DNA of 64,000 nucleotides from Lysinibacter cavernae (GCF_011758565.1 NZ_JAAMOX010000001.1:1713838-1777837), one strand, 5' to 3'; counted from the first letter of the stretch, positions 23,725 to 45,100 are shown. The notes: generated from the letters alone by a model not told the origin. Made by a program: numbers and translations.

Positions 23725-25140
23725 ATGAAAAAAACGATCACACGGCGCATAACCGCCGTCATCGGTGCCACGGCGCTCGGCGTCTTGAGCGCGGTGTCGC
23801 TCGCTCTTCCGGCCTCTGCCGTTGGTCCGGATCTTGACCCAAACGCCTCTGGTTCAATCACCATTCACAAGTACGAGCAGCCACTCACCAATGGCGCTCC
23901 TGCCGATGGTACGGAGCAGACGGTTCCTGCAACCCACGTCCCGATTGACGGCGTTGTGTTTAGCATCACGCCGGTAACTGGCGTCGACCTGACAACTAAC
24001 GCCGGCTGGACAACGGCGAAGACCCTGTCTGAGGCGCTTGCCGCAGACCCTCTCGCGCTGCCAACGCCGCTTGGTACGCCGCAGACGCTCCCGGCCACGG
24101 TTGGTGGCGACACCACGATTGGCAGCCTCCCCCTCGGCCTCTACCTGGTGCAAGAGGTATCGGCACCCGCCAACGTCGTATCAAAGGCAGCCCCGTTCCT
24201 CGTCACGGTTCCGCTCCCAACAACCGGCGCTGCTGCAGACTGGAACTACAACATCCACGTCTACCCGAAGAACGCTGTTGCTGGCACGCCAACAAAGTCG
24301 GTTGACGACAGCGGCAAATTTGCCCTCGGCTCAACCGTGACCTGGACCGTTGGTTCAACCGTTCCGGTCTTCGCAGATCGCGCAGAGCTCGTGTCATACG
24401 TCATCACGGATACGCTCGACAGCCGTCTGAGCTACACAGCCCCCGCGCGCATCTCGCTCGACGGAACCGCGCTGTCGGCGGCCGATGTGACCATTTCGAC
24501 GACCAACCCCGTCACTGTCACCTTCACCCCCACCGGCCTCGACAAGCTCATGGCCGCACCAAACGGTGCGCTCTCGCTCGAAATCGATACGGTTGTCACC
24601 GGCACCGGCTCGATCGTGAACACCGCCCTCGTGAACGTAAACGGCATCGAGTCCGAAACCAACCCGGCAACAACATCTTGGGTTCCCGTAGAAATCACCA
24701 AGGTTGACGGCGACAACCAGGCGCCCCTCGCCGGTGCCGTCTTCGCCGTCTACACCACACAGACCGGCGGAACGGCCTTGAGCTTCCCCGGTGGCATCAC
24801 CGAGTTCACGAGCGACTCAACCGGAAAAATCACGATTCCCGGCCTCAAGGCCGGCGAGGTGTACTGGCTCGAAGAGGTCACCGCCCCGACCGGCTACTTC
24901 GGTCTCGGCGAGCGCGTTCGTGTCCCAGGTTCTGGAACGCTGGCAGCGGTTCCCGGAGTGAACACCGGCGAACTTGTGACCTACACGCAGACCGTCGCCA
25001 ACGACAAGATCCCAGCGTGGATGCTTCCGCTCACCGGTAGCACGGGAACGCTGCTCTTCGCCCTCGGCGGAGGCGCTCTCGTCGCGGTAGCCATTGGCGC
25101 TGCGCTGGTTGTGAGCCGCAAGAAGAAGGCTCTTGCGTAA
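23725..25140 (+). CDS. SpaH/EbpB-family LPxTG-anchored major pilin
   Basis: ATG 23725 follows AAGGAGAAGGAAA; an upstream in-frame ATG at 23677 is ignored. The 471-residue protein has a signal peptide (1-32, LPASA), a pilin motif with the polymerising lysine (NIHVYPKN, 176-183, Lys182), an E-box (YWLEEVTAPTGY, 380-391) whose glutamate promotes isopeptide bond formation, and the sorting signal LPLTG at 434-438 followed by a hydrophobic helix and SRKKKALA. This is the classic backbone pilin of Gram-positive sortase-assembled pili: sortase links the threonine of LPLTG to the lysine of the next subunit. The pilin is followed by a hairpin and the class C sortase. Confidence 0.95.
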   Translation: MKKTITRRITAVIGATALGVLSAVSLALPASAVGPDLDPNASGSITIHKYEQPLTNGAPADGTEQTVPATHVPIDGVVFSITPVTGVDLTTNAGWTTAKTLSEALAADPLALPTPLGTPQTLPATVGGDTTIGSLPLGLYLVQEVSAPANVVSKAAPFLVTVPLPTTGAAADWNYNIHVYPKNAVAGTPTKSVDDSGKFALGSTVTWTVGSTVPVFADRAELVSYVITDTLDSRLSYTAPARISLDGTALSAADVTISTTNPVTVTFTPTGLDKLMAAPNGALSLEIDTVVTGTGSIVNTALVNVNGIESETNPATTSWVPVEITKVDGDNQAPLAGAVFAVYTTQTGGTALSFPGGITEFTSDSTGKITIPGLKAGEVYWLEEVTAPTGYFGLGERVRVPGSGTLAAVPGVNTGELVTYTQTVANDKIPAWMLPLTGSTGTLLFALGGGALVAVAIGAALVVSRKKKALA

Positions 25141-25178
25141 CTCACACTGAGTCCCATGGCGTCTGCGATGGGCTCCTG

Positions 25179-25216
25179 AGGGTGGTGGAATCGACGGTTG
25201 TCGGTTCCACCACCCT
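25179..25216 (+). terminator. Strong hairpin between major pilin and sortase genes
   Basis: AGGGTGGTGGAA (25179-25190) pairs perfectly with TTCCACCACCCT (25205-25216). The 14-nt loop holds an inner CGAC/GTCG stem. No T-run follows. It may cut transcription partly, or protect the 3' end of the pilin message, so that pilin is made in excess of sortase (inference). Confidence 0.6.
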
Positions 25217-25252
25217 TCAGTACGTTCAACACTTCAACAGGATCGAAGAACC

Positions 25253-26470
25253 GTGACCGCAACGGAAGCGCTGGCCACCTCAGCGGTGAGCGCAGGGCGT
25301 CGAGCGCGTTGGCGTTTCCCAGTAGGCCCCAGCGTGATCGCGGCGATATGCCTCCTTGGCGTCGCCGTCCTGCTCTACCCAACAGCCGCGTCTTGGCTGA
25401 CGCAGTATGAACAGTCCCAGCGCATCGTGGCGCTGTCTGACCAGGTTCGCAACATGTCTCCCGAAAACCGTTCACAGGCCGTCGAGAAGGCCGTTGCGTA
25501 TAACGCGTCGCTCAACGGCAGCGCCGCGGTTACCGCTGGCGAACGACTGCCGCAGGCCGAGTCGCCCGGCGACCCTGAAGATCAGAACTACAACGAGCTG
25601 CTTGCCGCTGACGCAAGCGGGCTCATCGGAAGAATCAAAATCCCCGTCATTGATGCCGACCTTCCGATCTATCACGGAACAAGCGATCAGACCCTCCGCG
25701 AGGGCATCGGTCATTTACAGGGAACCGCCCTCCCCGTTGGCGGCGAGAGCACCCACTCGGTCCTCACCGGTCACCGAGGGCTCGCCGACGCGACGATGTT
25801 TACTCACCTTGACCAGGTCGCCGAGGGTGACACCTTCACAATCGAGGTGTTTGGCGAGGTGCTCACCTACCAAGTCGTCACAACGCAGGTTGTTGAACCG
25901 GAAGAGACGGAAACACTTCATGCTCAGCGAGGCAAAGACCTCATCACGCTCGTCACGTGCACACCGCTTGGCATCAATAGTCACCGTATCTTGGTCACTG
26001 GCGAACGGATTGAGCCGACTCCCCCAGAGGATCTCGCACAGGCAGGGAAGCGGCCCGACGTTCCAGGCTTCGCCTGGTGGGTAGTTGGCCTTGCCGGAGC
26101 GCTCCTGCTCACCGGTGGGTACGTTTGGTACTCTGGGCGGCCGGTTAGCCCGGGGCGCAAAGCAAACCATTCCAAAGGTTTCATTCCCGATGACCTAGGA
26201 ATGTCCAGCCGCGACGGCCATAATGAGGATGATGACTACCTCGGACCCTCTCGGCGGACGCCGACCACAGCAGGTCAGGGCGCAGCGCACCAGGCAGCGG
26301 ATCATCGCAGCGGCAGCCTCAGCATTCGCAACGAACGGCTACGCAGGAGCGAGCATCGGGGCTATCGCCGATTCACTTGGGATGACCAAAGGCGCGCTTG
26401 GGTACCACTTCGCGACGAAGGAGCTCCTCGCTCAAGCGGTAGCGAACGAAGCGCTGCACGAGATGAGTGA
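25253..26470 (+). CDS. Class C sortase (pilin polymerase) with unusually long C-terminal tail
   Basis: A 405-residue protein. Membrane segments lie at about 24-43 and 274-293, the two-anchor layout of class C pilus sortases. The catalytic triad is visible: His174 (LTGHRG), Cys236 (TLVTCTPLG) and Arg245 (NSHRILVTG). A DPED segment near 107-110 may be the lid. Its substrates should be the LPLTG proteins encoded upstream. The odd part is the tail of about 112 residues after the second membrane segment; from residue about 324 it is read in a different frame through the first 80 codons of the TetR gene. The stop codon of the ancestral gene may have been lost. Confidence 0.92.
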   Translation: MTATEALATSAVSAGRRARWRFPVGPSVIAAICLLGVAVLLYPTAASWLTQYEQSQRIVALSDQVRNMSPENRSQAVEKAVAYNASLNGSAAVTAGERLPQAESPGDPEDQNYNELLAADASGLIGRIKIPVIDADLPIYHGTSDQTLREGIGHLQGTALPVGGESTHSVLTGHRGLADATMFTHLDQVAEGDTFTIEVFGEVLTYQVVTTQVVEPEETETLHAQRGKDLITLVTCTPLGINSHRILVTGERIEPTPPEDLAQAGKRPDVPGFAWWVVGLAGALLLTGGYVWYSGRPVSPGRKANHSKGFIPDDLGMSSRDGHNEDDDYLGPSRRTPTTAGQGAAHQAADHRSGSLSIRNERLRRSEHRGYRRFTWDDQRRAWVPLRDEGAPRSSGSERSAARDE

Positions 26471-29448: not shown

Positions 29449-30711
29449 TTATGGGGTAATCACAACCCACGATTCGGTCTCATCATCCTCGTCAACGGGC
29501 GGGGCTGGCGGTGCTGGCGGGGCAACCTCAACAGGAGCGGCTGGCGCTGGCGGCGCCGCGACGGGTGCCTCTGCTGCCGGCTCGGAGGGCGGAACGTACG
29601 CTGGCTCCGGCTGTGCCTCGTCAACGGGGGCAGGCTCCGGTTCAACAACCGGTTCAGGAGCGGGAGCCGGATGCTCAGCCACAGGAACGGTCTCCACCAC
29701 GGTCGGTTCCTCAGACACCGTGGACACCACAGGATCCGGTGACGGCGAATACAGCAGCCCAGCGGTAAGGCCGGCAATGGCGACAACCGCGGCTCCCCCT
29801 GCTATGGCAACCTTCGCTCCAATACCAACCTTGCCTGCCGCCACGACAGAGGCCGCTGACGCACCGCTCGAAGCGCTCGTGGTTCCCCACGCGAGGCCGG
29901 CGATTCCTGATCCGCCAAGAATGAGCGGCGCAACGATGGAGCGCATCTGCTGCCCAATGTCGCTCATCCATTCAAACGATTGGCGGCAGTCAAGACACGT
30001 CTCAAGATGCGCGGCTACCCGGTCGGCATCGCGCTTACCGGCTTTGCGACGCACGGTTTTTGCCATGATCGACGAAACCGATTTGCATTCTTCGGAGTTC
30101 GTGCGCTCGACGTGGAGTTGCAGGTAGGCCGTCCTGAGGCCTTCCCTCGCCCGCGACGCGAGTTGCGCAACAGCGTTTGCCTTGATTCCGAGGCGGTCGC
30201 CGATGGCGTTGAGGTCGTAGCCGTCGATCTCAAGGAGCCAGAGCACCTGCTGCCAGCGCTCAGGAAGCTCGGTGAAGGCCGTGTAGACAAGCGAGCGCTC
30301 ACCGAGCCCCGCATTCACATCCGCCTCGTGAAGCTGCTCAAGAAAGCTGTCGGCATCCTCATCCAACGGAACCGTTTTGGTCTTTTTTGCCTGGTTCTTC
30401 GTGAGGTTCGCAAGCACCATGTACAGGTAGCCCCTGAACGACTCGGTTGGGCCCATCCCCCGCCTCAAGACGTCAAGGATGCTCGCAAACGCGTCGCTCA
30501 GTAAATCTTCTGCTTCTGGGCGTTTGCCCACCAGGTGCAGTGCCTGTTTAATGCCAGCGTCGTGGTGCCGAGCATAGAGCTCAGCAAACGCGGTCTGGTC
30601 GCCCCTACGCACCAGATCGCACAGTTCAGCATCGCTCGCGACGTCGTCATTCACGATGTCGTCATTCACGATGTCGTCGACAAATGTGTCGTGTTCTTCG
30701 TTTCCCCTCAC
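29449..30711 (-). CDS. ECF sigma factor fused to zinc anti-sigma-like domain, membrane segment and Pro-rich tail (copy 1)
   Basis: GTG 30711 is chosen (GAGGGGG 5 nt upstream; a longer frame to 30774 lacks this). Of 420 residues, about 26-108 are sigma region 2 (LCDLVRRGDQTAFAELYARH ... ESFRGYLYMVLANLTKN), and 142-200 are region 4 (YTAFTELPERWQQVLWLLEIDGYDLNAIGDRLGIK). Cys209, His235, Cys239 and Cys242 fit the C-x25-H-x3-C-x2-C zinc site of ZAS anti-sigma factors. A membrane helix is predicted at 301-321, then a 99-residue Pro/Glu/Ala-rich tail ending ETESWVVITP. A weaker hydrophobic stretch at 258-276 leaves topology uncertain; lysines between the two favour one span and an outside tail. It lies 87 bp after the adhesin gene ending at 30799. 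The N-terminus has a short repeat (VDDIVNDDIVNDDV). Confidence 0.88.
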   Translation of the reverse strand: MRGNEEHDTFVDDIVNDDIVNDDVASDAELCDLVRRGDQTAFAELYARHHDAGIKQALHLVGKRPEAEDLLSDAFASILDVLRRGMGPTESFRGYLYMVLANLTKNQAKKTKTVPLDEDADSFLEQLHEADVNAGLGERSLVYTAFTELPERWQQVLWLLEIDGYDLNAIGDRLGIKANAVAQLASRAREGLRTAYLQLHVERTNSEECKSVSSIMAKTVRRKAGKRDADRVAAHLETCLDCRQSFEWMSDIGQQMRSIVAPLILGGSGIAGLAWGTTSASSGASAASVVAAGKVGIGAKVAIAGGAAVVAIAGLTAGLLYSPSPDPVVSTVSEEPTVVETVPVAEHPAPAPEPVVEPEPAPVDEAQPEPAYVPPSEPAAEAPVAAPPAPAAPVEVAPPAPPAPPVDEDDETESWVVITP

Positions 30712-30798
30712 AGCTGCCCCCTCGGCATGTTGTGTATCGGTGTGCCGGGCCCCGTCGGGAGCCCGGCACACCAATGATGTGTTGTGTTCAGTTATGTG

Positions 30799-33700
30799 TT
30801 ATTTCGTTGAGGCGTTGTGGTCTGTCACACCGGAAACTACTTCCCGGCCGCGACGGCGACGCATAAACAACGCACCCAGCATGAGCGCCATGAGCGCGGC
30901 AACCACAGCGAGCGTAGAGCCCTCTGCGCCTGTCATGGTCAGCCCGCCAGCCCCAGCGGCGTTTCCACCGTTCGTTCCGTTCGGAACGGTCGGGTCCTCT
31001 GGGTCCTTCGGGTCAACCGGCGGCACCACAATCGTCGACTCGTCAAACGTGTTGACCACGGTGATGGCGAGTGCCTGAAGCTGGTCAGGCGTGCCATCGG
31101 TAATCACGGCCGCGTTATCGTATGAGTCGAAGTCAACCGTGTGGCTCACGGCTACTCCGGCATCCGTCTCTTCCGCGTAGCAGTGTGTTCCGATTGGGAG
31201 ACGGCGAGCGCCACCCTGGTCGTCAGCAAGCTGCTTCGTCTGCCCTGCCTTGATCTTGACGGTTCCCGAATACACGGTTGCGATTGTGTCGTCGCCCCCG
31301 GGAACGGTAACCGGGACGGCACAGGTCACCAGCACCTCGAACGCTTTACCCTCAGCCTGAGTGAGCGCCAGCGGCGTTCCTTCAACCTGCTTGGTGAGGC
31401 TGAGCGTGCCAGCCGAGTAGTAGTTCGTGAGCGATGCAAGCACCGTGTTGGCTGGCAGGTCCGCCGTCGCGGCGGAAGGAACGACCGTCACCGTCACGGC
31501 ATCAGCAGCGGCGTCTGCCGACCCCTTATCCGTCTCGGTAATCGAACACTCCGTGCCAAGCGGCAGACCGGTGATGACCTCGGACGTCACAGTTGTGGCG
31601 TCGTCGGAGACCGTCAATACAACGTCGTCAACGGGGATGTCCTCGTTGCCAACCTTGCAGGCAAGGGCGAAGGTCAGGCTGTTTCCGCCGGCGAACGTCT
31701 GCACGCCCTCACCAGAGAGCTGCTTGGTGATCTTGATTCCACCGAGCGCCTCAACCGCGAGGTCAAGCGTCATGTTGGTGAAGTCATCCCCCGTGAGACG
31801 GTTGGTCACCATCTTGGCAACGTCGTCACCAAGGGGCTCGTCACCGGTCACGTTTGGCGGGTCAACCGTTGCAGAGAGCGTCATGAGACCCGCGCTGCGC
31901 AGTCCGCCGTCGGCAAGCAGCTCGTTGTTGTTGTCAACGTCCTCGTTTGCGTCGGTGTTTGGGTCCGTCTGGATGCCGTTGCGCGAAGCTCCGTATCCAA
32001 ACAGCGGCCCACCCTCGGCAAACTGGTCTGCCGGCACGAGCACGTAGTAGTCGCCGGAGTCGAGCTTATTCGCGACCCAACGACCCTGGTCGTTTGTTGT
32101 GGTCTCGGCAACCATGTTCTCGCTGCCGTCTGACTCAACCTTGTAGACCTGAACCTTGACACCAGCTGGAACGCCGGCATCAACTGCTGGGTCATACACG
32201 CCGTTTTGGTCGTTGTCCTGCCAGATGAGGTCGCCGAGGCTAAACCCAAGCACCTGCACGTAAGGCTCATTCGATACAACAGGCTGCGTCGCGAAGGTCT
32301 CAGACCACACGCCAAACGATCCGATGTAGAGGTCGGCGGCTACGTTGTCGGCAGCCTGCAGCGGCACGTTCACCGTGATCTGCGTCTGCGACGTCAGGTT
32401 GCCATCTTGGATGAAGCGAACTGCCGTGACGTCGTCGAAGGATGCCGGGCATCCAGCCGAGCCGAAATCGGCTTCCGTGCACCACTTGGTGGAGCCAGAG
32501 GCGAGATCGTTTGAGGCGTCGTTTGCGCGCTGCGAAACCGACTTGGCGTCTGCGGAGGTGTAGTACCACGTTCCAGCGACGTCTCCGGTTGCACCGCCAG
32601 AGGCGGTTGGGGCTGGCAGCGCACCGGTCAGGTGCAACGTTCCCGAGTACTCAGAACCGTAGGTACGACGCTTTGCCGCAAAGTCATCCCCGTCATCACC
32701 GTTCGTTGGGAAGACATAAATTGCCTGGCTTGGCATAATGTCGGCGCCAATTGCGGTGTTTGCCCAGGTAAGCGACCAGTTCTGCAGCGAATCGGTGAAG
32801 TTGATCCGCTGATCAACGCCCATTTGCACGCGGAGGCCCTCGGTCGCGTAGGTGTTGACCGATTTGGTTGCCTGGTGCTGGTTCTTGTTGTACGTGACAT
32901 TATCTGCCCTGACATCAACCGTGTTGACGAGCGTCGTTCCTGCGGGAAGCAGCTGTGAGGCAGACGTGCAGATGTCGATGACGGGCAGCGTGTCCGTCGC
33001 AAGTCGGTCACCAAAGTTCCAGGTCAGGGTTGTTCGTCCTTGTGCGTCAACTCCAATGATCGGCCCGCCCACGCCCGACGGGGTGACGGTGCACGAATCT
33101 TCGTAGAGCAGCCCAGCAGGAAGCGTGTCAGTCACCGTCAGGTTACGAGCCGTGGCGTCTGCCAACGGCGAGGTCAGCGTCGGGGTGAGGCTCCAGGTAA
33201 ACATGTCACCAACGTTGGTCACCTTCAACAGGTCGTCGCCAGACGTCACCTTGTCAGCTGTCTTCTTGACGCCGATGCTCACGCTTTGAACGGTCAGGCG
33301 GTCACCGCGCATTCCGGCACCAAGGTGAGTATTGGGGTCATAGGTAATTGGCGACTTGTAGCCGTTATTCCATTTGTACCCAACAAGGTTGGCTGCAATG
33401 ACACCGTCGATAATTCGCTCGCCGGCGTTGGGTCCTCCATAGAATGACTCACGGGTCGTGAGTTTTGCCCGTGCAATCAGGGAGGTACCCGCGTCAAGTT
33501 TTCCATCCTTGCCGGTCACCCGGATGATGTTGACGTCTTCGAGGTTCCAGCCATCGGCGATTGGGTCAGTACTGAAGACCATGTCACCCTTGCTCTGAGC
33601 GCTCGTTCCGCAGTCCTGGCCTGCCGCAAGTTGAGGGGTCCAGTCGCCTGTGTAACGACCGGTGTTGGCGTCAAGGCTCTGCTCGAGCGAGTTGCCCCAC

Positions 33701-33888
33701 GATCCACCGGCAGCAAGCTTTCCGTATTCAACGGTAATACCCCCGGCTGGCGGGGTCGAAAGCGTCAAACTGCTCGCCCGTTCCCGAAATCGAGTATGAG
33801 AGCGACGTGAGCAGGCCCGCAGACGGGCCGCCGCTGAACGCGCCAAGCGTTTGAACGGAGTTATCCCACACGTCACACACCTGGGCAT
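30799..33888 (-). CDS. C-terminal part of a frameshifted giant surface protein (SdrD-B, two DUF5979 domains, LTMTG anchor)
   Basis: This frame continues the protein of the upstream frame (33728-35935). The homologous sequence starts at about 33745 with GGITVEYGKLAAGGSW, matching SQGIEVTYGRLVGGGSW in the paralogue ending at 37476; residues before that in this frame are not homologous. Further on come a DUF11-type region (TVTDTLPAGLLYEDSC), an SdrD-B unit with Ca2+-loop-like residues (LGDLIWQDNDQNGVYDP) and two DUF5979-type units (IKITKQLSGEG and LSLTKQVEGTP, each with paired cysteines). The end is LTMTG, hydrophobic helix, then MRRRRGR. Whether this half is made depends on a frameshift repair; see findings. 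Confidence 0.8.
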   Translation of the reverse strand: MPRCVTCGITPFKRLARSAAARLRACSRRSHTRFRERASSLTLSTPPAGGITVEYGKLAAGGSWGNSLEQSLDANTGRYTGDWTPQLAAGQDCGTSAQSKGDMVFSTDPIADGWNLEDVNIIRVTGKDGKLDAGTSLIARAKLTTRESFYGGPNAGERIIDGVIAANLVGYKWNNGYKSPITYDPNTHLGAGMRGDRLTVQSVSIGVKKTADKVTSGDDLLKVTNVGDMFTWSLTPTLTSPLADATARNLTVTDTLPAGLLYEDSCTVTPSGVGGPIIGVDAQGRTTLTWNFGDRLATDTLPVIDICTSASQLLPAGTTLVNTVDVRADNVTYNKNQHQATKSVNTYATEGLRVQMGVDQRINFTDSLQNWSLTWANTAIGADIMPSQAIYVFPTNGDDGDDFAAKRRTYGSEYSGTLHLTGALPAPTASGGATGDVAGTWYYTSADAKSVSQRANDASNDLASGSTKWCTEADFGSAGCPASFDDVTAVRFIQDGNLTSQTQITVNVPLQAADNVAADLYIGSFGVWSETFATQPVVSNEPYVQVLGFSLGDLIWQDNDQNGVYDPAVDAGVPAGVKVQVYKVESDGSENMVAETTTNDQGRWVANKLDSGDYYVLVPADQFAEGGPLFGYGASRNGIQTDPNTDANEDVDNNNELLADGGLRSAGLMTLSATVDPPNVTGDEPLGDDVAKMVTNRLTGDDFTNMTLDLAVEALGGIKITKQLSGEGVQTFAGGNSLTFALACKVGNEDIPVDDVVLTVSDDATTVTSEVITGLPLGTECSITETDKGSADAAADAVTVTVVPSAATADLPANTVLASLTNYYSAGTLSLTKQVEGTPLALTQAEGKAFEVLVTCAVPVTVPGGDDTIATVYSGTVKIKAGQTKQLADDQGGARRLPIGTHCYAEETDAGVAVSHTVDFDSYDNAAVITDGTPDQLQALAITVVNTFDESTIVVPPVDPKDPEDPTVPNGTNGGNAAGAGGLTMTGAEGSTLAVVAALMALMLGALFMRRRRGREVVSGVTDHNASTK

Positions 33889-35935
33889 CTGGCAGGGCCA
33901 GCGTTCCCGCCGTGTTATTGATACCGACGTAGGTATACATTTCTTCGTCCATCGTGGTCATACCATCGCCGGATCCCCAGCTGGAGCGACTCGTGGGGAT
34001 GATGGTGCTTGGCGCACCAAGGCTCTCGGTTGGCGCACCAATGGACTGCTCCGTGAGCGGATCGCCAGAGGCCGGAATCTTTCCGTACGACTTCACTACG
34101 GAGCCGTTAGCCGCGATAACAATCTGGTGCGTCTGGCAGTTGTCTCCTGACGCGGTCGTTCCGTCCCATCCTGGCTCGAAGCCGGCACCAAAGTTGCTCA
34201 CGCCACCCGATGATGACGGGTCAAAATTGGTGTAGCAGTTGGTAACCGGGTATTTGTCTCCAACAATGGGGTCTCCGTCTTTCCAGCCGGGAATGTTGGC
34301 CTTCATGATTGCGGAGATTGGGTAGACAACCGTGACGACACCGGCGCTGACAAGGCGGTGTGGCTCCATATTAATCTTGCCGTCGTACGACTTCTGCGGA
34401 ACGTACTGCAGGCTCGAATCCATGCCAGAGACGTTCACCTTGAACTCACCCGTTGCCTGGTTGAAGCCGTTGCACGAATACGTTCCCGACCTCATCTGGT
34501 TGTTCCCAGGAACCGTGCTGCTGCTGACAAAACTCGGGAGACCGAATTTCCCGGCATAGTACGTTGTCATTTCGCGACAGCGATTATCTCCGCTTGACGG
34601 AGCCGGCGCTGCACCGTATTGGGCGTAACGAGGGTCGATCTTGTCGGTAAAGCTCACGTTTGGGGTCAACGACTGCTGCCCGCGGACGTCAGCGCTTGCC
34701 GCCTCGATAACCGCGGTATAGGCAACAACGATGGAATCCTCAACCTTGCCGGTCACCGGGTTCAGCATGGGGACGACTCCACCAATTGGCTGGTTTCCAC
34801 CTGAAGGGTCACCCGCACCATCCGAACGCTTTGCAAGGTTAAACCGTGGCGCGGCACTTACCTCGAACGGCCCAACATCAAACTGCTCGCTGGGGATCGC
34901 ATCGTTGATCGCGGAGTAGGCAACTGCCGATGCCGTAAAGGTCGAGCCGTTTGGCGAGGCAGCACTCGGCACGAGGTTCAGCGTGTACTTTGAGTTTCCG
35001 CCCTGGGTAATGAGACCGACGTTACAGATGAGACGTACGTCACCGTTTGCCTCGGTGATGATCTGCGATTTGACCGACCGGTCCTGACGACAGGCCGTCG
35101 GGATGTTGTTCACACCGTTAACCTCGAAGGTTGGAACTGCGCCGTCAGTGCTGTGCAGGAGCACCTCAAGGATGACATCACCAACGGGCTCGATAGCGCT
35201 GCCAGCGCCTTCCTGCATACTCGTCGTGTTGATCGAGTAGTTCACGGTCACCGTATCGTTCGTTGCAACGCGGTTATCGGTCCGCGAGCAGTCATTTCCT
35301 GGCTCGTCAACGGGGCAGATACCGTTGGGGTCAAGAGGCTTTGAACCGGTTAATATCCCCTGGACACCTGGTGTATTTGGGTCGGTGTCATAGAGATCGA
35401 CCGAGAATGCCGGAATCGGGCGAAGCCCGCCGTTGGCCGACGGCGACTGACCACCGGTCACGGTGACGGGCGCGAGCGCCGTGTGCAGCGCTGGCGGAGC
35501 CTCGGCCTGCCCAACAAAGTCGGAGTGCGACGTGCTCGGCATGATCCAGCGGTAGTTCAGTGAGGGCGAGATCGCGCGAACGGTGTAGTTGCCGTCGGCA
35601 AGGCCGGCGAAGGTGTACGCACCAGTGGCATCCGTGGTCGTTTCCGCGACGATTGCTCCAGAGCCGTCAAGCAGAGCGATTTTCACGCCGGCGCGACCGG
35701 CCGATTCGTTCCCGGCTCCCGCCACGTTTGGGTCGCCAAAATCACCTGTGGTTCCCATAACGTTGTCGTTCTGGGCGCCGTCTCCGTTGAGGTCGATCCA
35801 CACGGTTCCGTGCACTCCGTCAGCGACTTCGCCAGGCACAACAGCGCCAAGAGGGCTGATTGTTGGTTCTTCGGCAGAGGCAGCCGTAACTGCGGGCAGC
35901 GTCATCATCGATGCAATGAGTCCTACGCTCAGCAT
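33728..35935 (-). CDS. N-terminal part of the frameshifted giant surface protein
   Basis: A 735-residue frame that stops 21 nt after FDPAS, where its paralogue at 37476-42035 continues without a break. It has the end of a signal peptide (SVGLIASMMTLPAVTAASAEE), an SdrD-B domain (VHGTVWIDLNGDGAQND ... GAYTFAGLADGNYTV), and the N-terminal adhesin core shared with the array (TNDTVTVNYSI, APRFNLAK, VSFTDKIDPRYAQYG, MEPHRLVSAGVVTVVYPI). The start is unsure: ATG 35935 has no ribosome site and would give a signal peptide without positive charge. In-frame codons upstream encode a fitting basic region (RRPARGRIALST) but no ATG or GTG. An out-of-frame ATG at 35988 has AGAGAG upstream. Confidence 0.75.
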   Translation of the reverse strand: MLSVGLIASMMTLPAVTAASAEEPTISPLGAVVPGEVADGVHGTVWIDLNGDGAQNDNVMGTTGDFGDPNVAGAGNESAGRAGVKIALLDGSGAIVAETTTDATGAYTFAGLADGNYTVRAISPSLNYRWIMPSTSHSDFVGQAEAPPALHTALAPVTVTGGQSPSANGGLRPIPAFSVDLYDTDPNTPGVQGILTGSKPLDPNGICPVDEPGNDCSRTDNRVATNDTVTVNYSINTTSMQEGAGSAIEPVGDVILEVLLHSTDGAVPTFEVNGVNNIPTACRQDRSVKSQIITEANGDVRLICNVGLITQGGNSKYTLNLVPSAASPNGSTFTASAVAYSAINDAIPSEQFDVGPFEVSAAPRFNLAKRSDGAGDPSGGNQPIGGVVPMLNPVTGKVEDSIVVAYTAVIEAASADVRGQQSLTPNVSFTDKIDPRYAQYGAAPAPSSGDNRCREMTTYYAGKFGLPSFVSSSTVPGNNQMRSGTYSCNGFNQATGEFKVNVSGMDSSLQYVPQKSYDGKINMEPHRLVSAGVVTVVYPISAIMKANIPGWKDGDPIVGDKYPVTNCYTNFDPSSSGGVSNFGAGFEPGWDGTTASGDNCQTHQIVIAANGSVVKSYGKIPASGDPLTEQSIGAPTESLGAPSTIIPTSRSSWGSGDGMTTMDEEMYTYVGINNTAGTLALPDAQVCDVWDNSVQTLGAFSGGPSAGLLTSLSYSISGTGEQFDAFDPASRGYYR

Positions 35936-36289
35936 CGTTGACAGCGCGATGCGTCCCCGCGCTGGCCGTCTCGGCGCGCGAGTTGCATTGAACTCTCTCG
36001 TACTTCTATTCCCTAAGATTTTTTCCTCCGTGGCACATCATGAAGCCCCCCGACCAAGCCGGAATGCTTTTGGGCAGCACAACTAGCAATGTCGTACATC
36101 GGCGGTTAAAGACAACCCACTGACACGTCGCTTACGCGCACAACAGAATTAGTTTCTGCTCAGATGAGTCCACGAGCGTTCCCCAAAAACGTTCTCGCGA
36201 CAACAGTTTATCGCAAAAACATACTTCTAACTGGGTTCGTGGCTGGCAAAAAGATGAGCATTTCACGAGACACGCACGAGGGAATCGAC
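35936..36289. other. Intergenic region between the sigma fusion and the next adhesin gene
   Basis: No separate gene is seen. It should hold the promoter of the adhesin gene starting near 35935-35990. On the minus strand GGAGGAAAAAATC at about 36011-36023 looks like a ribosome site but is followed by no standard start in frame, and TTAGGGAA is shared with the leader of the paralogue at 42036-42060. A GGGGGG run lies near 36050. Confidence 0.45.
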
Positions 36290-37483
36290 CTACTCGTCGA
36301 CCACTACCCAGCCTTCGGTTTCTCCGTCGAGGGAATCCGTGCCGTGGTCATCCGACTGCACCGGCCCAGGAGCCGAAGGGGTTTCCTGTTCCCCACCCTG
36401 CTCAACCGGCGTTGGGTCGTCAGCGCCCGGCGTCTCGGGGATCGACGTGGTTTCCGGTACGACCGGACGCTCATGGCCATCGTCCGCACCAGAGCCGACT
36501 CCCGCGAGCGCAAGCACAATCGCGACAGTTGCTCCGATAAGCACGGCACCGATGAGCGCAACGCCAGCCTTCTGACTCAGTATTCCGCCGAGTTTCAGGG
36601 CGAGCACACGACTCGCAGCGCTTGCCGCGGGAACGTCACCAAACAACCACGCGGTGAGGCCCGTCGGCGCGGCGAGCAAGAAGATCGGCGCGACGATCCC
36701 GCGCATGTGTTGGCCAACATCCTTGAGCTGCGACAGCACCGCCTTGCAGTCTTCGCAGGTCTCAAGGTGCTCCTGAACGCGCTGCTTATCCTGGGGGCCG
36801 ATGCGCTGGTCGCGCCCGTACCGGATGAGCTTTGGGCGAATCTTGGCACACGAGGCCGCCGCGGCCTCGTCAATATGCTCGGCGAGATAGGCGAGTCTGA
36901 GCCCCTCGCGAGCACGAAACGCAAGTTGCAGCACCGCGTTCGAGTTGAGGTTCATCCGGCGTCCGATAATTTCTGGGCTGAGGCCATCCACCTCGTTCAG
37001 CCACAGCACCCGCTGCCATTTTTCGGGCAGTGATTGAAACGCGCGATGCAGCACGTTTCCCTCGGCGATGTGCTCGGTTTCGTCGTCAACCGCAAGCTCG
37101 TCAAAATACTCATCCGCATGCTCAAACAGCTGCATGTCATTGTGGTTGATTCGGCTTCGGTACTTATTCGAAATCGTCGTGAACAGGTATCCGCGAAACG
37201 TTTCCTTTGGCCCGAGGCCGCGTTGCAGCGTGCTCAGGATGCTCGCGAAGGCTTCGGCTACAAGATCCTCGGCCTGCTGCGAGTCTCCCGTCACGTAATA
37301 CGCGTGCCGAAGCGCGGCCTCGTTGTGACGAGCGTAGAGCGTTGCGTAGGCGTCGAGATTCCCCTCTCGAACGGCGTTGCTCAGCTCCGCGTCACTCCGA
37401 TCGCCCTCGACTCGCTCAGCGTGGCGGAGGGCGGCAACATCCACGGTTGTGCCGTCATCGTCAAGGTGGGCGTTATCAGGCAT
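36290..37483 (-). CDS. ECF sigma factor fused to zinc anti-sigma-like domain, membrane segment and acidic tail (copy 2)
   Basis: ATG 37483 is chosen: it overlaps the adhesin stop by 8 nt (ATGCCTGA) and GGGGGAGG lies 5 nt upstream. Of 397 residues, about 33-112 are sigma region 2 (ELSNAVREGNLDAYATLYARH ... ETFRGYLFTTISNKYRS) and 146-204 are region 4 (RAFQSLPEKWQRVLWLNEVDGLSPEIIGRRMNLNSN). Cys212, His239, Cys243 and Cys246 form a likely zinc site. One strong membrane helix is at 306-329; a weaker hydrophobic segment lies at 263-281. The tail is acidic and Pro-rich and ends ETEGWVVVDE, echoing copy 1. Fusion of sigma and anti-sigma in one chain suggests release by proteolysis or a conformational change after a membrane signal (inference). 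Confidence 0.88.
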   Translation of the reverse strand: MPDNAHLDDDGTTVDVAALRHAERVEGDRSDAELSNAVREGNLDAYATLYARHNEAALRHAYYVTGDSQQAEDLVAEAFASILSTLQRGLGPKETFRGYLFTTISNKYRSRINHNDMQLFEHADEYFDELAVDDETEHIAEGNVLHRAFQSLPEKWQRVLWLNEVDGLSPEIIGRRMNLNSNAVLQLAFRAREGLRLAYLAEHIDEAAAASCAKIRPKLIRYGRDQRIGPQDKQRVQEHLETCEDCKAVLSQLKDVGQHMRGIVAPIFLLAAPTGLTAWLFGDVPAASAASRVLALKLGGILSQKAGVALIGAVLIGATVAIVLALAGVGSGADDGHERPVVPETTSIPETPGADDPTPVEQGGEQETPSAPGPVQSDDHGTDSLDGETEGWVVVDE

Positions 37484-40400
37484 TGGTGCCTCCCCCGTGC
37501 GATGCATGCCGCCTGGCGGGCAACCGCAGCAACAGCAGGACAATTCCGGCGAGCGCAAGCACAAGCCAGCTGACGCGTCCTGCATCACCTGATGTGCCCG
37601 TTACCGCGAGGGCAGCTGGGGTACCGCCGTTGGCCCCAATTCCCGGTTTGTTGCCGGTGGCTTTGGAAGCACCCTCTGGCTGCTTCCCACTCGACGCGCC
37701 GCCCTGCGTGCTTAGCTCCGTGCCTGCGCTCACCACTCGGAGGTCTCGCTCAATTGTGACGCGGATGGGCTGCAGCTCGGCCGGGTTCCCCTCGGTCACC
37801 ACCGCGGCCTCCCGATAGCTGTTGTAGTCAACGGCGCTGGCGGAATCCATGGCCCGTGGCGTCGCAAAGCAGTGCGTTCCAACGGGGAGTGCCCTTGGGG
37901 ACCCTTCGTTCGTGACCATCTGCTTCGTCTGGCTGCCAACCATCTTCACGGCACCGGAGTAGAGCGTTGCGTTGACGCTCGTACCGTTGGCAAGCGTTTC
38001 CGTGAGCTGACAGGTCACAACCACGGTATTCACGGACGTTGGCTGACGGTCAGCGGCTCCCCCGAACTCACGCTGGGTCAGCTTCAGAGTGCCAGCAGCG
38101 ACATACCGGGTGAGCGAGGCAACAACGGTGTTCGCGGCAAACTCGTCGGTGGCCGGGCTCTCGACGACCGCAACCTGCACCGGTTCGGCACCTGCTGCCC
38201 CGCTAATGCTGCATTCTGAGCCAAGAGGAAGATTGGTGATGGGGCTGCTGAGCACGGACGCGCTTCCCGCAGCAGCAACCGTGAGTGGTTCGTCAGCAAC
38301 GATGCCGCCCTGAAACTGGCAAGACACCTGGTACGTGCTCAGGCTGCCGTTGGTGAGTGTGGCCTCGGCGTCAACCCCGACGCCCTCAAGCAGCTGCGAG
38401 ACGATGAGCGTGCCAACAGGGACAACAGCGAGGTGCATGCTGTTATTAGCGAAGCCGTTGCCGTCAGGGCCGTTGCCAATAAGCGTCGACCCAACTCTGG
38501 TCGCGGCAAAGACCACGTCCTCGCTCCGAAGCGCACCCGACGCATCCGGCGCGCCCGCCGACGGGGCGAAGCCGTCAAGCTGCATCCCCTTGCCAAAGCG
38601 GTCGGCCACAATCCTCGCCGCATACGTGCCGGAGTCAAGATTGCTTGCGTGCCAGCGCCCGTCAGCATCGGTTGTCACCGTCTGCACGACGGTTTCTTCG
38701 CCTCCGGCACCAACCGCAAGAATTTCGATCGGAACGCCGGCTGGCCCCTGCCGGTCGATACCAGCGGTGAACGTTCCGTCGCGGTCAACATCCGTCCACA
38801 AACGATCGCCAAGCGTAAATCCGAGCACCCTCGTGACGGCGGCGTTTGAGACAACCTGTTGGCCGCCGAAGGTCGCCGACCACGCGCCAAAGGATGCCAC
38901 GTAGCTGTCTCCCGCGCCACTGCCGACCGGGAGGATACCAACGGTTGCGAGCACCACTGAGGCCGCGGCGAGCGAATCCGTCTGCACAAAGCGAGCGGCG
39001 GTAACGGATGCGAGCGAGGCGGGGCAGTTGTCGCCTACCTCGGCTGCCGTGCACCAGGTCACTCCTGCCGACGCAGCCCGCGAGGTGCTCTTTCCCAAGA
39101 CCGCTGCGGGGGCCGCCGAGGTGTAGAGCCACTGACCCGCGACCGTTGCTCCGGTCGCCTCTACCGTCGGGGCGGCAAGCCAATCACCAAGCCCAACGGT
39201 TCCGGCAAACTGCGAGCCGTTGGCGTCACCAGGTGCGGGCAGCACAAAGAGTACATCCGGTGCCGCGATGCTGGTGCGGCTTGAGGTGTTGGCCCAGCGC
39301 AGATTCCACTGTTGTGGGCTGTCCTTCTGCTCGATCGTCGTCCCAACGCTGAGCTCAGTACGAAGGCCCTCCGTTGCAAACACGGCGATCGAATCGCTGC
39401 CGGCGTTCATGGACGGGGTGAAGAGCAGGTTCTCGGCACGCAACTCGGCCGTAACCGAAAGCGTCGTACCGGCCGCAACAAGATGGGAAACGGTGGTGCA
39501 GAGCGACAACTTCGGAAGACCGGAGGCATCGGCAAGGTCGCCAAGGCTCCAGGTAACGGTTGTGAGCCCCGCCGCATCCTGGCCAACAACCGGCGCGTTT
39601 TCCTGCCAAGCGGCGCACGCAGCATCCACAAGCAGTCCGTCGGGGAGCGTCGCGACGACGGTCGCCCCGCGCACGGCCTCGCCGACGGGGTTTGGGGCAA
39701 AGCTCGGCGTGAGGGTCCAAGCGAGTTCGCGGCCAGCGTCCACGAGCGAATCGGCATCCGCGTCGGCCTTGACCTCAAGGTGGGCAATAGCGTGCTGCAC
39801 GGTCATCCGGTCGCCCTGCTCTGAGGAGACCAAGGGCTGGTTTGGGTTGTAGTTGAGTGGTTTGGTGTACCCGTTGTCCCACCCTTGGCCGCTGAACAGG
39901 GCGATAACCGATCCGCTTGGAATCGTTGCGCCGTCATGTGGGCCGCCGTAAAACGTCTCGCGGGTCTCTAGCTTTGGGCGAATAGTGATGCTCTGGGCAG
40001 GGTCGAGCGTGGCGTCTGGGGCCGTCAACCGAACCATGAGGATGTCGTCAACGTTCCAACCGTCGGCGACCGGATCTGCGCTGAACTCCAGCAGGCCGCT
40101 GGCCGCAGCTGCACGGCCACAGTCGTTTGCCGTGCTGCGCTGCGCGCTCCAGTCGCCACGATAGCGATGAGATGTTGCATCCAACGACTGCAAGACGTCT
40201 TGCGCCCACGAGCCTCCGCCAACGAGTCGCCCGTAGGTCACCTCGATGCCCTGACTTGCAGGGTCAAAGCCCGTCAGCGGTTTCACGACCGTCGCCAGCT
40301 TGAGGCTCAGCGAAACAAATTGCCCGGCAGACGCGCCCGTTGTGTACGGCGTCAGGACCTGCTGCGAGTTATCCCACACGGCGCAGGCCTGCGCTTGCTC

Positions 40401-42035
40401 AAGCGGGAGCACGCCGTGCGCGTTGTTAATAGACAGGTAGCCGTACTGGGCCTCGCCTGGCGTTGTCATGCCGGCCCCATCGTGACGTGCAACAACACCG
40501 GTTGGGACGAGCGGGCGACCGGACGTGTTCTCTGGATGCGGGGAGCCGTAGGCGTCCCCGGCAAGCGGGTCACCCGACGCCGGAACCTTGCCATAAAGTG
40601 TCGACGCGATGCCCCTCGCATCAATGATGAGCGGAAAGCTGCGGCAATTCTCGCCGCTCGGGTCCACGCCGTCCCAGCCTGGCTCAAACTCGCCAGCGTA
40701 ATTGTGTTGACCGTCACGGCTGGTCGGCTCAAAATCGGTGAAGCAGCTTGACACAGAGTAGGTGCCAGCAACGATCGGGTCCCCGTTCTCCCACAGGCTG
40801 CCGTCTGGGTTTCGCGCCTCGTTTGCTTTGAGCACGGCCGAAATCGGGTAGCTGATAGCGATTCGGCCAAGAGCAACCAGCGTGGCCCCGCCGAGGCTCT
40901 GGCCGTTGATCGCCGTTGACGGAACGTGTTGTCCGGACGTATCGAGCCCCTCCAGCGCGACGGAAAAGTAGCCGGTAGCCGGATCGTATGCGGTCGGATC
41001 GCATACGAACGACCCAGACTCGAACCGGTTCTCGCTTGGCGGGTTAGTGCCGGACGCTCGACCTGGCACTTTCCAACGCCCCGCCCAGTAGTCGTCCATC
41101 GCCTTACATTCAACAGGCGCAGCGCCGAAAGTCGCGAGGCGTTGGTCGATGCTCACACCAAAACGTGCGGTCGATCCGATCGAGGCCATTCCTTTTACCC
41201 CGTCTGGAGCCTCGATCGCCGCGGAATAGTTCACTACGATGGCGGCCTCAGTCTCCCCTGTGACCGGGTTGACGACGTAGGCACGCCCGGCATCGTCGGC
41301 AACGCCGCCGGGGGTTCCACCGTTTACGAGGTCAAACCGAGGCGTCGCAGACACCTCAACTGGGCCAAACGCTACCGACTCGCTTGTCGCGGCGCCGTCG
41401 GAGGAGGCCACCCCCGTCAGCTCATACGTCGAACCGTTTGCGGAGTTTCCCGTCGCAACCACATCGAGCGGAACCGCCCGAACGCCGCTGCTCTCGACCC
41501 TGCCGATATTGCAAACCAGCACGGAGGTGCCGTCCGCATCCGTTGTAATACTGGATGCTGGCACACGCCCCGTCTCGCATGCCGCAGGAAGTCCGGTCTG
41601 CGGCAGCGTCACAAATCTGACCTCCGCGCCACCGCGCTGAACGAGCGTCGCTTCTACAACCGCGTCCTCGATGACGGTGATTGCTTCTTGCCCGGATTCC
41701 TTTGCAATTGAAACGGCGAAAAATGCGGATGACACATCGTTGGTGAGCACACGCGCGTCGTCGGTGGCGCAGTCGTTCCCCGCGGCGACAGCAGGGCAGT
41801 CTGCGCCGGGGTCGGCAAGCGGCAGCGTGCCCGTCTGGAGGCCGTTTGCTCCGGCTTCTGGCGAGCCCGCGTATGTGCCAAGTTGAAGTTGGACGTCCGA
41901 GATATCCGTCGTCGGATCTGGCTGCGCATCTGTTGCCGATGCCGGTTCAACGGCCGTCATCGGCAGTCCAGCAAGCAGGACAAGCCCGGCAAGTGTTGCC
42001 CCAAAAAACCGCTCCCGGCGGTGACGTCTTAACAT
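37476..42035 (-). CDS. Giant surface adhesin, intact member of the sigma-linked subtype (LAVTG anchor)
   Basis: A 1519-residue protein with ATG 42035 preceded by AGGGA. The signal peptide has a basic start (MLRRHRRERFF), hydrophobic core and ASA cleavage near residue 34. The N-terminal core shared by the array follows (LTNDVSSAFFAVSI, ATPRFDLV, ARFGVSIDQRLATFG, VALGRIAISYPI). Next come DUF11-like units, an SdrD-B unit (LGDRLWTDVDRDGTFTAG) and two DUF5979-type units (LIVSQLLEGVG, LKLTQREFGGA) with cysteine pairs. The end is LAVTG, a hydrophobic helix and PARRHASHGGGTNA. The anchor motif lacks the proline of LPxTG, so a class E-like sortase encoded elsewhere is a possible partner. Its stop overlaps the sigma-fusion start. 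Confidence 0.88.
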   Translation of the reverse strand: MLRRHRRERFFGATLAGLVLLAGLPMTAVEPASATDAQPDPTTDISDVQLQLGTYAGSPEAGANGLQTGTLPLADPGADCPAVAAGNDCATDDARVLTNDVSSAFFAVSIAKESGQEAITVIEDAVVEATLVQRGGAEVRFVTLPQTGLPAACETGRVPASSITTDADGTSVLVCNIGRVESSGVRAVPLDVVATGNSANGSTYELTGVASSDGAATSESVAFGPVEVSATPRFDLVNGGTPGGVADDAGRAYVVNPVTGETEAAIVVNYSAAIEAPDGVKGMASIGSTARFGVSIDQRLATFGAAPVECKAMDDYWAGRWKVPGRASGTNPPSENRFESGSFVCDPTAYDPATGYFSVALEGLDTSGQHVPSTAINGQSLGGATLVALGRIAISYPISAVLKANEARNPDGSLWENGDPIVAGTYSVSSCFTDFEPTSRDGQHNYAGEFEPGWDGVDPSGENCRSFPLIIDARGIASTLYGKVPASGDPLAGDAYGSPHPENTSGRPLVPTGVVARHDGAGMTTPGEAQYGYLSINNAHGVLPLEQAQACAVWDNSQQVLTPYTTGASAGQFVSLSLKLATVVKPLTGFDPASQGIEVTYGRLVGGGSWAQDVLQSLDATSHRYRGDWSAQRSTANDCGRAAAASGLLEFSADPVADGWNVDDILMVRLTAPDATLDPAQSITIRPKLETRETFYGGPHDGATIPSGSVIALFSGQGWDNGYTKPLNYNPNQPLVSSEQGDRMTVQHAIAHLEVKADADADSLVDAGRELAWTLTPSFAPNPVGEAVRGATVVATLPDGLLVDAACAAWQENAPVVGQDAAGLTTVTWSLGDLADASGLPKLSLCTTVSHLVAAGTTLSVTAELRAENLLFTPSMNAGSDSIAVFATEGLRTELSVGTTIEQKDSPQQWNLRWANTSSRTSIAAPDVLFVLPAPGDANGSQFAGTVGLGDWLAAPTVEATGATVAGQWLYTSAAPAAVLGKSTSRAASAGVTWCTAAEVGDNCPASLASVTAARFVQTDSLAAASVVLATVGILPVGSGAGDSYVASFGAWSATFGGQQVVSNAAVTRVLGFTLGDRLWTDVDRDGTFTAGIDRQGPAGVPIEILAVGAGGEETVVQTVTTDADGRWHASNLDSGTYAARIVADRFGKGMQLDGFAPSAGAPDASGALRSEDVVFAATRVGSTLIGNGPDGNGFANNSMHLAVVPVGTLIVSQLLEGVGVDAEATLTNGSLSTYQVSCQFQGGIVADEPLTVAAAGSASVLSSPITNLPLGSECSISGAAGAEPVQVAVVESPATDEFAANTVVASLTRYVAAGTLKLTQREFGGAADRQPTSVNTVVVTCQLTETLANGTSVNATLYSGAVKMVGSQTKQMVTNEGSPRALPVGTHCFATPRAMDSASAVDYNSYREAAVVTEGNPAELQPIRVTIERDLRVVSAGTELSTQGGASSGKQPEGASKATGNKPGIGANGGTPAALAVTGTSGDAGRVSWLVLALAGIVLLLLRLPARRHASHGGGTNA

Positions 42036-42133
42036 TCAGGTGTTCCCTAATCCCCTTGTAACTCCGCGCCCCCTGCGCAGAGAAATCCCCCACAGCATCC
42101 GCTCCCCAGCAGATACCGCATCAAACGTGTTGT

Positions 42134-42167
42134 GACCGCGGCAGCACAGTTCTGTGCTGCCGCGGTC
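42134..42167 (-). terminator. Perfect stem-loop terminator
   Basis: GACCGCGGCAGCACA (42134-42148) pairs perfectly with 42153-42167 around a 4-nt loop. It lies just past the stop of the adhesin gene ending at 42187 and before the next adhesin start at 42035. No T-run is seen, so it would be an L-shaped terminator, common in actinobacteria. Confidence 0.75.
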
Positions 42168-42186: not shown

Positions 42187-45100
42187 CTAGCTCAGGTCAA
42201 CTGATTTGCGTCGCCTGATCATCATTCCGGCTCCGAGGATCAGCAGCAGCGCGCCGCCAAGCGCACCCCAGCCGAACTCGGTTCCGGTGACTACAAGACC
42301 GCCAGGTTTGCTCTGCTCATCCGCAGGCTTCTGCGGAGGAACGATAGCCTCAACCGGTGCTTTCTCAACGGCCTGAACAACCGTGGACGTTGCACTTGTC
42401 ACCAGCGGATTTGCTGCGTCGACCGGGTGACCGGTCGCAAAAGCGGTGTTGATGACCTCGCGAGCTTGTTCATCCCCCTCGGTGATGACGTACGTTGCGG
42501 TGCAGTGAACGGTGTCACCCGGCGCAATCGTCGCCAGAGAGTCTTTGCAGGTAATTGCAGAGAGCCCCTCCAAGCCGTCATCAATAATAACATCGTGCAT
42601 CGACAGGTTTCCTGTGTTTGTGATGTCAAACCCGAAGGTTACAGTGTCGCCGGCGTCAACGTATCCGTCGCTGTCAGCATCCGTCACCTCATCGATCGTT
42701 TTGATCAGTTCGAGCGACGGCCGGGCGTCGAGCGGCTGGAGGACGGTGTCTTCAAGGCTCTCAACGGCATCACCAGACGGGTTCTTGCCAGTCGCATAGG
42801 CGTCATTCACGATCTCCTCTGCGTACACGTCCTGCTCGGTCACCGTGTAGGTGGCTTCACAGACCATGGTTGCGCCGGCAGCAAGCACACCGTCGGTCAC
42901 GTCGCAGTCGAGCGCGCTGAGGCCCTTGAGGCTGTCAACGATCTCCACATCGGTGAGCTCAACGTTGCTCGTGTTCTGAACCGTCAGCTGGTAGGTGATG
43001 ATGTCGCCTGCGTCGTTGAGGCCGTTGCCGTCCTCATCGCTCATGCCGGTGATCTCCTTCTTCAGGTCAAGCCCGAGGATGAGGTTCGTGTTGACCGTGA
43101 CGGAGTCATCGTCAGCAACAACAACGTCGTTCGGGTCAACGGACGTGACCTCAGCCGTGTTGTCCACCGAGCCGTTCATCACGTCGTCAACCGTGACGTC
43201 AACGGTCGCGCGGCACTCGAAGCCCTCACCTGGCAGGAGCTCTGCGATGCTTGGGTCTCCCGTGGCGGTGTCACAGGTCAGCGCGCTCAGACCGGCGAGG
43301 TCGTCGCTCAGGTCAACATTCAGCAGCCTCGTGTTTCCCGTGTTCTCGACGGTAAAGAGGTAGTGAATGACGCTGCCCTCGTCAACAAGCTGATCGGCAT
43401 CGGTGTCGACGCTTTCAACCGTCTTGACCAGCGAGATCGTGCGGACCGCGTCAAGCGGAACGGTAACCTCGGCAGGGTTCGAATCAACCGGGCGACCGAG
43501 TGCATCGGTTGCGCTTGCCGTTGCCTCGTTGGTGAGGGTCTCCGCCAGCTGGTCTGCCTCGGTCACGGTGTAGGTGGCCGAGCAGGTGGTGGATGCCCCA
43601 GCAGCAAGTGTGGTCGCCGCACAGGTCACGGCGCTCACACCGGGAAGGACGTCGGTGATCCCGAGGCCCGTGACGGTGTCGTTTCCGGTATTGGTTACGG
43701 TGAAGCCGTACGTGAGTACGTCTCCCTCGTCACGCAGCGTGTTCGAGTTGCTGTCGGCCCATGCCGTCTCGCTCTTGACGAGCGTCAGGACGGGAAGCAC
43801 CTCGAGCACACCGAAGTTGACGTTGACCGGGTCGCTGCTTCTCGCGAGTCCGAGGTCGAAGGTCTGAACGGGAACCGGGTTGGCCGCAGGATCGGCGGTC
43901 AGACGCCATCCCATCGCCGCGAGGTCGTCCGTCATCGTCACGGAGTACGAGCCGGAGTGCAGGCCGTCGAAGGAATAGGCACCCTGCGCATCCGTTGTGG
44001 TGGTCATCGAGACGGCTTCGTCGTCACCAGCGCCACCGTCGTCAACACCGTCAGGCCCAAACGAGTAGCCAGAGAGTTCCATCGTGATTCCGGGAACCCC
44101 GGCTTCGCCGCTGTCGTGCACGCCGTTGGCGTTGGCATCGTTCCACACGATGTTGCCGATCGAGGATGCCGTGACCTTGGTCGTCGTGCGCCCAGCCTCG
44201 CCAATAATCAGCGAGAGGCCTTCGATCTTGGTGCTCGCAATCGAGTTCTTCAGCAGGTCACCCTTGAGCGAGTTGTCTGCGTCAAAGTTGAGGTCGATGT
44301 ATCCAAAGCCACCGGGGACAACGGGGATCGTCCGCACCTTGATTGCGGTCGCGTCGGCGAGCGGGGTTGCACTCCACACAATGCTTGCGCTGTGCGGGTC
44401 AGCCTGCAGGTCCGCGAGAGGAGCGTTGGTAAACCACAGTGACTCAACGCCAAGCGAGCCGGTTGTTTCGAGGTAGGTGAAGTCACCGGTGAAGGTGGTT
44501 CCACGTCCATCGGCTGCGTTTGGCAAAATGTCGACGAGTTCGGCAGAGCCGACCGGTGCCGCGAGGCGGTTTGCCCATGACAGTCGGTACGGAACCGGGT
44601 CGCCAACCTCGATCTCGGCTGGTGCACGCTTGGCGACGGCGAATTCGCTGAAGCCGTTAACCGCGATACCCGAGGTAGAGGTTCGGTATGACTCAAGCGA
44701 GGAGTCGTCCGGCGACGAGATCACGGCTGACGAGAGCAGGGTCGCAGGAACAGGAGCGTTCACCGGAACCTGGGCCTCGTATGTCAGTACCGGCAGCGGG
44801 TCACCCACTGGCCAGTCGCCAAGTACCCAGGTCAGGGTGGAGACGTTATTGGCATCGTCAGCGGTGCACGAGACGCCGTCTGGGCCGGGATCGGCCGCAA
44901 CAAATACCGGGTCTACGCCGTTAATCGCGATGGCCGAGCCAGACAGGTATTCGAGGCAGGAAGGAATGTTCACCACGATCTGAACGTCGTGGACAGTTGG
45001 TGACTGCGACGAAAGGGTCAGGGTTGAAGCCACTTCAAACTTCACCGGCGCACCGGGAGCAGCGCTCGAGACGCCTGGTGACGAGATAGACGTGCGGACA

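Follow-up and report, generated by a model that had tools for sequence, protein, structure and literature searches.

How Gram-positive bacteria monitor their anchored adhesins is largely an open question, and a 64,000-nt stretch of Lysinibacter cavernae DNA (NZ_JAAMOX010000001.1:1713838-1777837; hereafter the window) raises it in a concrete form: what links a giant surface protein to the membrane-tethered sigma factor encoded next to it? The window holds two modules, both encoded on the minus strand, in which an adhesin gene is followed by the gene of a sigma fusion, that is, an extracytoplasmic function (ECF) sigma factor joined in one chain to a zinc anti-sigma (ZAS) domain, a membrane helix and a long tail. 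The two genes very probably work as a dedicated pair, and in the clade of the window the partnership can be followed to a short tag at the end of the sigma fusion and to one domain variant of the adhesin. Coordinates are positions in the full stretch, and the modules comprise the following open reading frames (ORFs).

37476-42035, minus strand: adhesin 1, 1519 amino acids (aa), with an N-terminal region of unknown type, SdrD_B, two DUF5979-like units, LAVTG, a membrane helix and a basic end
36290-37588, minus strand: sigma fusion 1, with an ECF sigma factor (r2, r4_2), a zinc anti-sigma domain, a hydrophobic helix and an acidic/Pro-rich tail
33728-35935, minus strand: N-terminal ORF of adhesin 2, 735 aa, with a signal peptide and an N-terminal SdrD_B, ending at a frameshift
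30799-33888, minus strand: C-terminal ORF of adhesin 2, 1029 aa, with a DUF11-like domain, SdrD_B, two DUF5979 and the sorting signal LTMTG
29449-30774, minus strand: sigma fusion 2, of the same architecture as sigma fusion 1

The order of adhesin then sigma in both copies (42035-36290 and 35935-29449), as described in the first-pass annotation, is borne out by the ORFs, and its reading of each sigma gene as ECF sigma, zinc anti-sigma domain, helix and tail is confirmed by Pfam, hydropathy and AlphaFold. Sigma fusion 1 likely starts at 37483, giving an 8 nt overlap with the stop of adhesin 1, and the probable start of sigma fusion 2 at 30711 lies 87 nt past adhesin 2. Both proteins match Sigma70_r2 and Sigma70_r4_2 above the Pfam cut-offs, and TIGR02937 likewise; Sigma70 regions 2 and 4 are the only ones present, which defines them as ECF factors. 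The zf-HC2 family is matched in both, below the Pfam cut-off in sigma fusion 2, and the zinc motif C...HxxxCxxC (C209, H235, C239, C242) is invariant across 22 aligned paralogues; together with the helical domain that follows the sigma part, this motif identifies a ZAS domain. In the AlphaFold model the sigma and anti-sigma helices mostly exceed pLDDT 85 and the tail is disordered, while the sigma chains of the SigE-RseA and SigW-RsiW structures in the PDB are among the best Foldseek matches. The membrane helix is predicted by hydropathy in both proteins.

The adhesins display the features of sortase-anchored surface proteins (signal peptide, LxxTG, hydrophobic helix and basic end), and the C-terminal ORF of adhesin 2 matches TIGR01167 at 16.4 bits against a cut-off of 15.9. 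Both contain the SdrD_B and the two DUF5979 units ascribed to them earlier, the latter on a profile built locally; Pfam alone finds two DUF5979 in adhesin 2 and a single sub-threshold match in adhesin 1. What did not hold is that each adhesin is one intact gene. Adhesin 2, whose N-terminal SdrD_B domain is extra compared with adhesin 1, is split into ORFs 35935-33728 and 33888-30799, which overlap in different frames. The break falls close to a GGGGG run at ~33740-33770, and sequencing error, decay and phase variation are indistinguishable as its cause. A structure search of the PDB with the DUF5979 pair returned weak pilin-like beta-sandwich matches only.

Pairing of surface proteins with sigma fusions

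The genome of the window encodes 26 sigma-fusion paralogues (E<1e-20), and 23 of these 26 adjoin a giant surface protein when their neighbours are read individually. The surface protein usually lies just upstream of the sigma gene, overlapping it by 4-11 nt or set apart from it by a short stretch, and is sometimes divergent or downstream. Three paralogues lack a surface neighbour: C2:249416; C1:874997, which is truncated and has no helix; and C1:1969907. The last of these (L040:9396-10931) carries a sorting signal at its own C-terminus, made up of LTLTG, a helix and RRRR, and may be both membrane- and wall-anchored.

An automatic test for anchored proteins was positive for 18/24 sigma fusions in the window genome vs 11/128 other genes in the same regions (p 3e-11), and reading of the misses raised the count to 22/24 in that set. 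The same test gave 15/19 vs 8/94 in genome G475 (p 8e-10), 19/28 vs 30/340 in other Leucobacter (p 2e-12) and, on a small sample, 5/7 vs 8/43 in Klugiella (p 0.009); as the background regions were chosen for holding a sigma fusion, the background rate is, if anything, overestimated. In other genera the result was 4/84 vs 24/856, which is not significant, and the sigma fusions there mostly adjoin core genes. The outcome that the first-pass annotation had named as refuting its reading, homologues with no preference for adhesin neighbours, is accordingly seen in other genera and not in Leucobacter, Klugiella and the window's genus; pairing across the whole family is ruled out, and pairing with adhesins is a derived trait of certain clades. 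Copy number varies as well: relatives of the window genome in the same family mostly have 0-4 sigma fusions, and Leucobacter genomes 0-6 as a rule, with 12 and 21 in two of them. The Microbacteriaceae search, in which 3 candidates per genome were scored, was not used for copy numbers.

Within the window genome, sigma-core identity correlates with adhesin similarity (Mantel r 0.65, p 1e-4, n=24), and the nearest relative is the same for sigma and adhesin in 13/24 cases. Partner architectures differ by clade, comprising SdrD_B/DUF5979, Big_9/cadherin-like, 17 Big_6 with GEVED, RCC1 with Ig, and SpaA/DUF7927. At L042:7153-10980, a sigma fusion conserved with G475 stands beside a 635 aa anchored protein of RCC1 propeller and Ig domains.

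Such co-phylogeny taken alone would be expected if adhesin islands simply duplicated and carried a neighbouring sigma gene along without any functional link, because adjacent genes duplicate together. This explanation appears very improbable, considering that the pairs are scattered over the genome and retained at 30-60% identity, and that the pairing recurs with differing adhesin architectures.

The C-terminal tag and the U2 domain

The partnership of the window's own clade involves two short elements in each module.

36293-36328, minus strand: C-terminal tag of sigma fusion 1, DGETEGWVVVDE
29452-29487, minus strand: C-terminal tag of sigma fusion 2, DDETESWVVITP
37774-38126, minus strand: second DUF5979 unit of adhesin 1 (the U2 variant), wall-proximal, 154.7 bits, the proposed receptor of the sigma tag
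31078-31443, minus strand: U2 DUF5979 unit of adhesin 2, 179.5 bits

The tag, with the consensus [DE][DG]x[TS][PDE]xW, caps a Cys-free, Pro-rich and poorly conserved linker and is common to the window's sigma clade and a sister clade in Leucobacter. It ends 20 of 3105 called proteins, namely 18 flagged sigma fusions and two proteins from L194 and L220, each a duplicate of a sigma fusion. Among sigmas with a surface neighbour, a DUF5979 neighbour was found for 16/16 tagged and 6/48 untagged ones (p 1.5e-10, which is not a true probability because the sequences are related). In the window's clade the adhesin precedes the sigma, and in the sister clade it follows the sigma, with the DUF5979 partner kept; this reversal of gene order also speaks against mere carriage of the sigma gene by duplicating islands.

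The adhesins of tagged sigmas are marked by U2, a wall-proximal variant of DUF5979, whose scores in the fetched set were either >105 or <17 bits with none between. To counter the bias of the fetched loci, whole genomes were searched for U2 independently of the sigma, the neighbours of the last loci being judged by a coordinate search. In 54 Leucobacter genomes, 27/30 strong U2 matches lay within 5.3 kb of a sigma fusion, compared with 0/10 weak matches, and 3/4 U2 matches in the window genome were near one. In genome G084, of another genus, a U2 adhesin is followed by a sigma fusion ending in DEDDTPRWVVVTE. A U2-bearing surface protein at G475:C1:2059381 has no sigma fusion nearby.

The first-pass annotation had proposed a self-contained surface-sensing unit. 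The dedicated pairing that this implies receives strong support in Leucobacter and in the genus of the window, and some from a small sample in Klugiella, through adjacency, co-phylogeny, orthologous modules and the partnership of tag and domain. The loop itself, in which the adhesin would free the sigma and the sigma could switch array genes, is a hypothesis.

Descent and surroundings of the modules

The two modules had been taken for a tandem duplication, a description that is right for their position and wrong for their descent. Sigma 2 shares 54% identity with a copy at C1:1239 kb, about 500 kb away, and 41% with sigma 1, and the adhesins of sigma 2 and of the C1:1239 kb copy agree with this kinship. 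In the tree, sigma 2 clusters with the C1:1239 kb copy and L196 of G475, and sigma 1 with L195 of G475 and L097 of Leucobacter coleopterorum, orthologues from two Leucobacter genomes. Local tandem duplication as the origin of the pair is ruled out by the tree and the identities. Orthologous modules of the window genome and G475 share 63% identity in the sigma and 65% in the adhesin in one case, and 58% and 81% in the other. Related loci were searched with three clade members as the query, a profile of all 22 paralogues being too diverse. In L. coleopterorum, a DUF7507-type adhesin, a DUF5979 adhesin and a sigma follow the gene order of the window, with broken adhesin frames. In strain HDW9A of this species (L097/L194 and other loci), frames are broken in many adhesin genes and some sigma genes of the family, and these breaks are either true decay or assembly indels.

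Upstream of adhesin 1, one further feature was recorded.

42134-42167, minus strand: candidate transcription terminator, a perfect hairpin in the gap that separates adhesin 1 from the adhesin upstream of it (42187-47010), with z -5.3 for the stretch

This hairpin is probably a terminator that sets off the module. The short gap 5' of adhesin 1 (42092-42167) contains two strong hairpins, the second of which lies directly before the start of adhesin 1. Three more giant anchored adhesins, none with its own sigma, occupy 42187-55897; the last 30 residues of those at 47189-51046 and 51311-55897 are identical, pointing to a recent duplication or conversion. On the other side of the modules, 19747-26470, as read by eye, is likely a sortase pilus cluster: beside a 1300 aa anchored protein it encodes a class C-like sortase and a pilin-like protein with LPLTG.

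A possible signalling route and its counterparts

ECF52, ECF53 and ECF48, including SCO4117, likewise unite an ECF sigma, a ZAS domain, a membrane helix and a long Pro-rich extension within a single chain (PMC5826349, PMC8999054). The zinc finger, transmembrane region and Pro-rich extension that characterize ECF52 are all found here, the helix by hydropathy only. For these fusions regulation by proteolysis is expected (PMC8999054, PMC5826349). Unlike ECF52, the window proteins have no carbohydrate-binding domain, the tail being a disordered linker with a DDxTPxW tag, and a genome can hold as many as 26 copies, most of which by far adjoin anchored adhesins, whereas S. coelicolor has a single ECF52 (PMC5826349).

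The Gram-negative cell-surface signalling systems FecI-FecR-FecA and IutY resemble the modules in outline, since a receptor gene adjoins the sigma/anti-sigma gene and a surface receptor acts as sensor. IutY is a fusion of sigma and anti-sigma that proteolysis activates (PMC8999054), and a Pseudomonas TonB-dependent transducer reportedly binds its anti-sigma and protects it (PMC11637429). By analogy, the best-supported reading is a Gram-positive counterpart in which the adhesin would take the role of the TonB-dependent transducer, with the difference from FecIRA that there is neither outer membrane nor TonB-dependent receptor, the partner is a sortase-anchored adhesin and the receptors are unrelated. 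The SigI-RsgI systems of Bacillus and Clostridium likewise have a membrane-bound anti-sigma, varied extracellular sensing domains and several paralogues; their sigma and anti-sigma are separate, unlike in the window, and SigI does not belong among the ECF sigmas that carry a ZAS domain.

A two-gene route of cell-surface signalling can be proposed. In the cytoplasm, the zinc anti-sigma domain of the same chain would hold the sigma half inactive, with the membrane helix as tether, and the disordered Pro-rich tail would extend into the wall with the conserved tag at its end. There the tag would dock on the wall-proximal U2 unit of the cognate adhesin. An altered state of the adhesin (presence, anchoring, ligand binding or tension) would change the occupancy of the tag and expose the tether to regulated proteolysis, and the freed sigma would transcribe its own adhesin. 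Pairing of the genes, their co-inheritance, the make-up of the domains, the partnership of tag and U2 and the clade's word upstream of the adhesins are observed; the position of the tail outside, its docking, the proteolysis and the direction of control are inferred. We regard the whole chain as evenly poised between right and wrong. Somewhat more tentative is the general form of this proposal, in which each sortase-anchored adhesin would be the sensor of its own tethered sigma through tag and U2, with >20 parallel channels in one genome and other pairs of tail and adhesin in other clades.

An outside position of the tail is presumed on indirect grounds: the tails of other clades have exactly two Cys or Big_13 Ig-like domains, one sigma fusion carries a sorting signal, and positive charge tends to lie before, not after, the last helix. 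Control of the module's own adhesin is made likelier by a promoter-like word specific to the clade.

36107-36112, minus strand: TCTTTA word, 177 nt before adhesin 2, a candidate promoter element in the tagged clade

Of the tagged-module adhesins, 11/16 have [TC]CTTTA in the 300 nt before the gene, compared with 3/41 for untagged modules and 29/538 for other genes. TCTTTA itself is present in 9 tagged upstream regions, and the best of its permutations in 4. The word offers a lead for autoregulation rather than proof. Searches for a universal upstream motif of all modules, by k-mers and of the TTAGGGGA type, gave nothing convincing.

Several observations count against the proposed route. Prediction of the membrane helix is weak, and two hydrophobic segments appear in some paralogues, an arrangement that would place the tail inside. 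TCTTTA was not found upstream of adhesin 1 or of its G475 orthologue, its spacing to any -10 box is irregular, and it was noticed and tested on overlapping data. No sigma fusion lies near the U2-like units of intermediate score in G305, G182, G173, G225 and G177, or near the U2 surface protein at G000:C3:299059 in the window genome; this protein and the one at G475:C1:2059381 are possibly orphans that share the tag receptor. Furthermore, tag and U2 share ancestry within one clade, and the counts that join them are not independent.

The sigma might instead sense another envelope cue, such as wall damage, polysaccharide, or sortase or secretion load, with the tag read by a protease or wall enzyme and the adhesin as output only. 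ECF52 SCO4117, with its carbohydrate-binding tail, is apparently autoregulated (PMC5826349); relatives in other genera keep the architecture without an adhesin neighbour, so that the ancestral signal was probably not an adhesin, and the TCTTTA word is compatible with the adhesin as output. We consider this account rather unlikely, as on its own it leaves unexplained both the partnership of tag and DUF5979 variant across reversed gene order and a further genus, and the tails that vary between clades together with the adhesin type.

An autoregulated sigma within an adhesin operon could also produce bistable, stochastic expression, with few adhesins made at once and antigenic or adhesive variation as the result. 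The 26 paralogues with divergent sigma cores, the overlapping ends of adhesin and sigma in one operon and the G-run frameshift of adhesin 2 agree with such a scheme, whereas the conserved tail domains and tag indicate an outside input and no evidence of mutual exclusion was found, making it improbable.

No description of adhesin-paired ECF fusions was found in the literature searched, which left most subscription journals outside its coverage and does not prove novelty; the modules are fused ECF regulators of a new variant, with an adhesin partner. The system is compact, consisting of two adjacent genes, a tag of 7-12 residues and one candidate each for the receptor domain and the promoter word, and it recurs many times within one genome and is conserved between species. 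It would hint at what the extensions of actinobacterial fused ECF sigmas can sense, and the bacterium may sense and control each of its adhesins individually.

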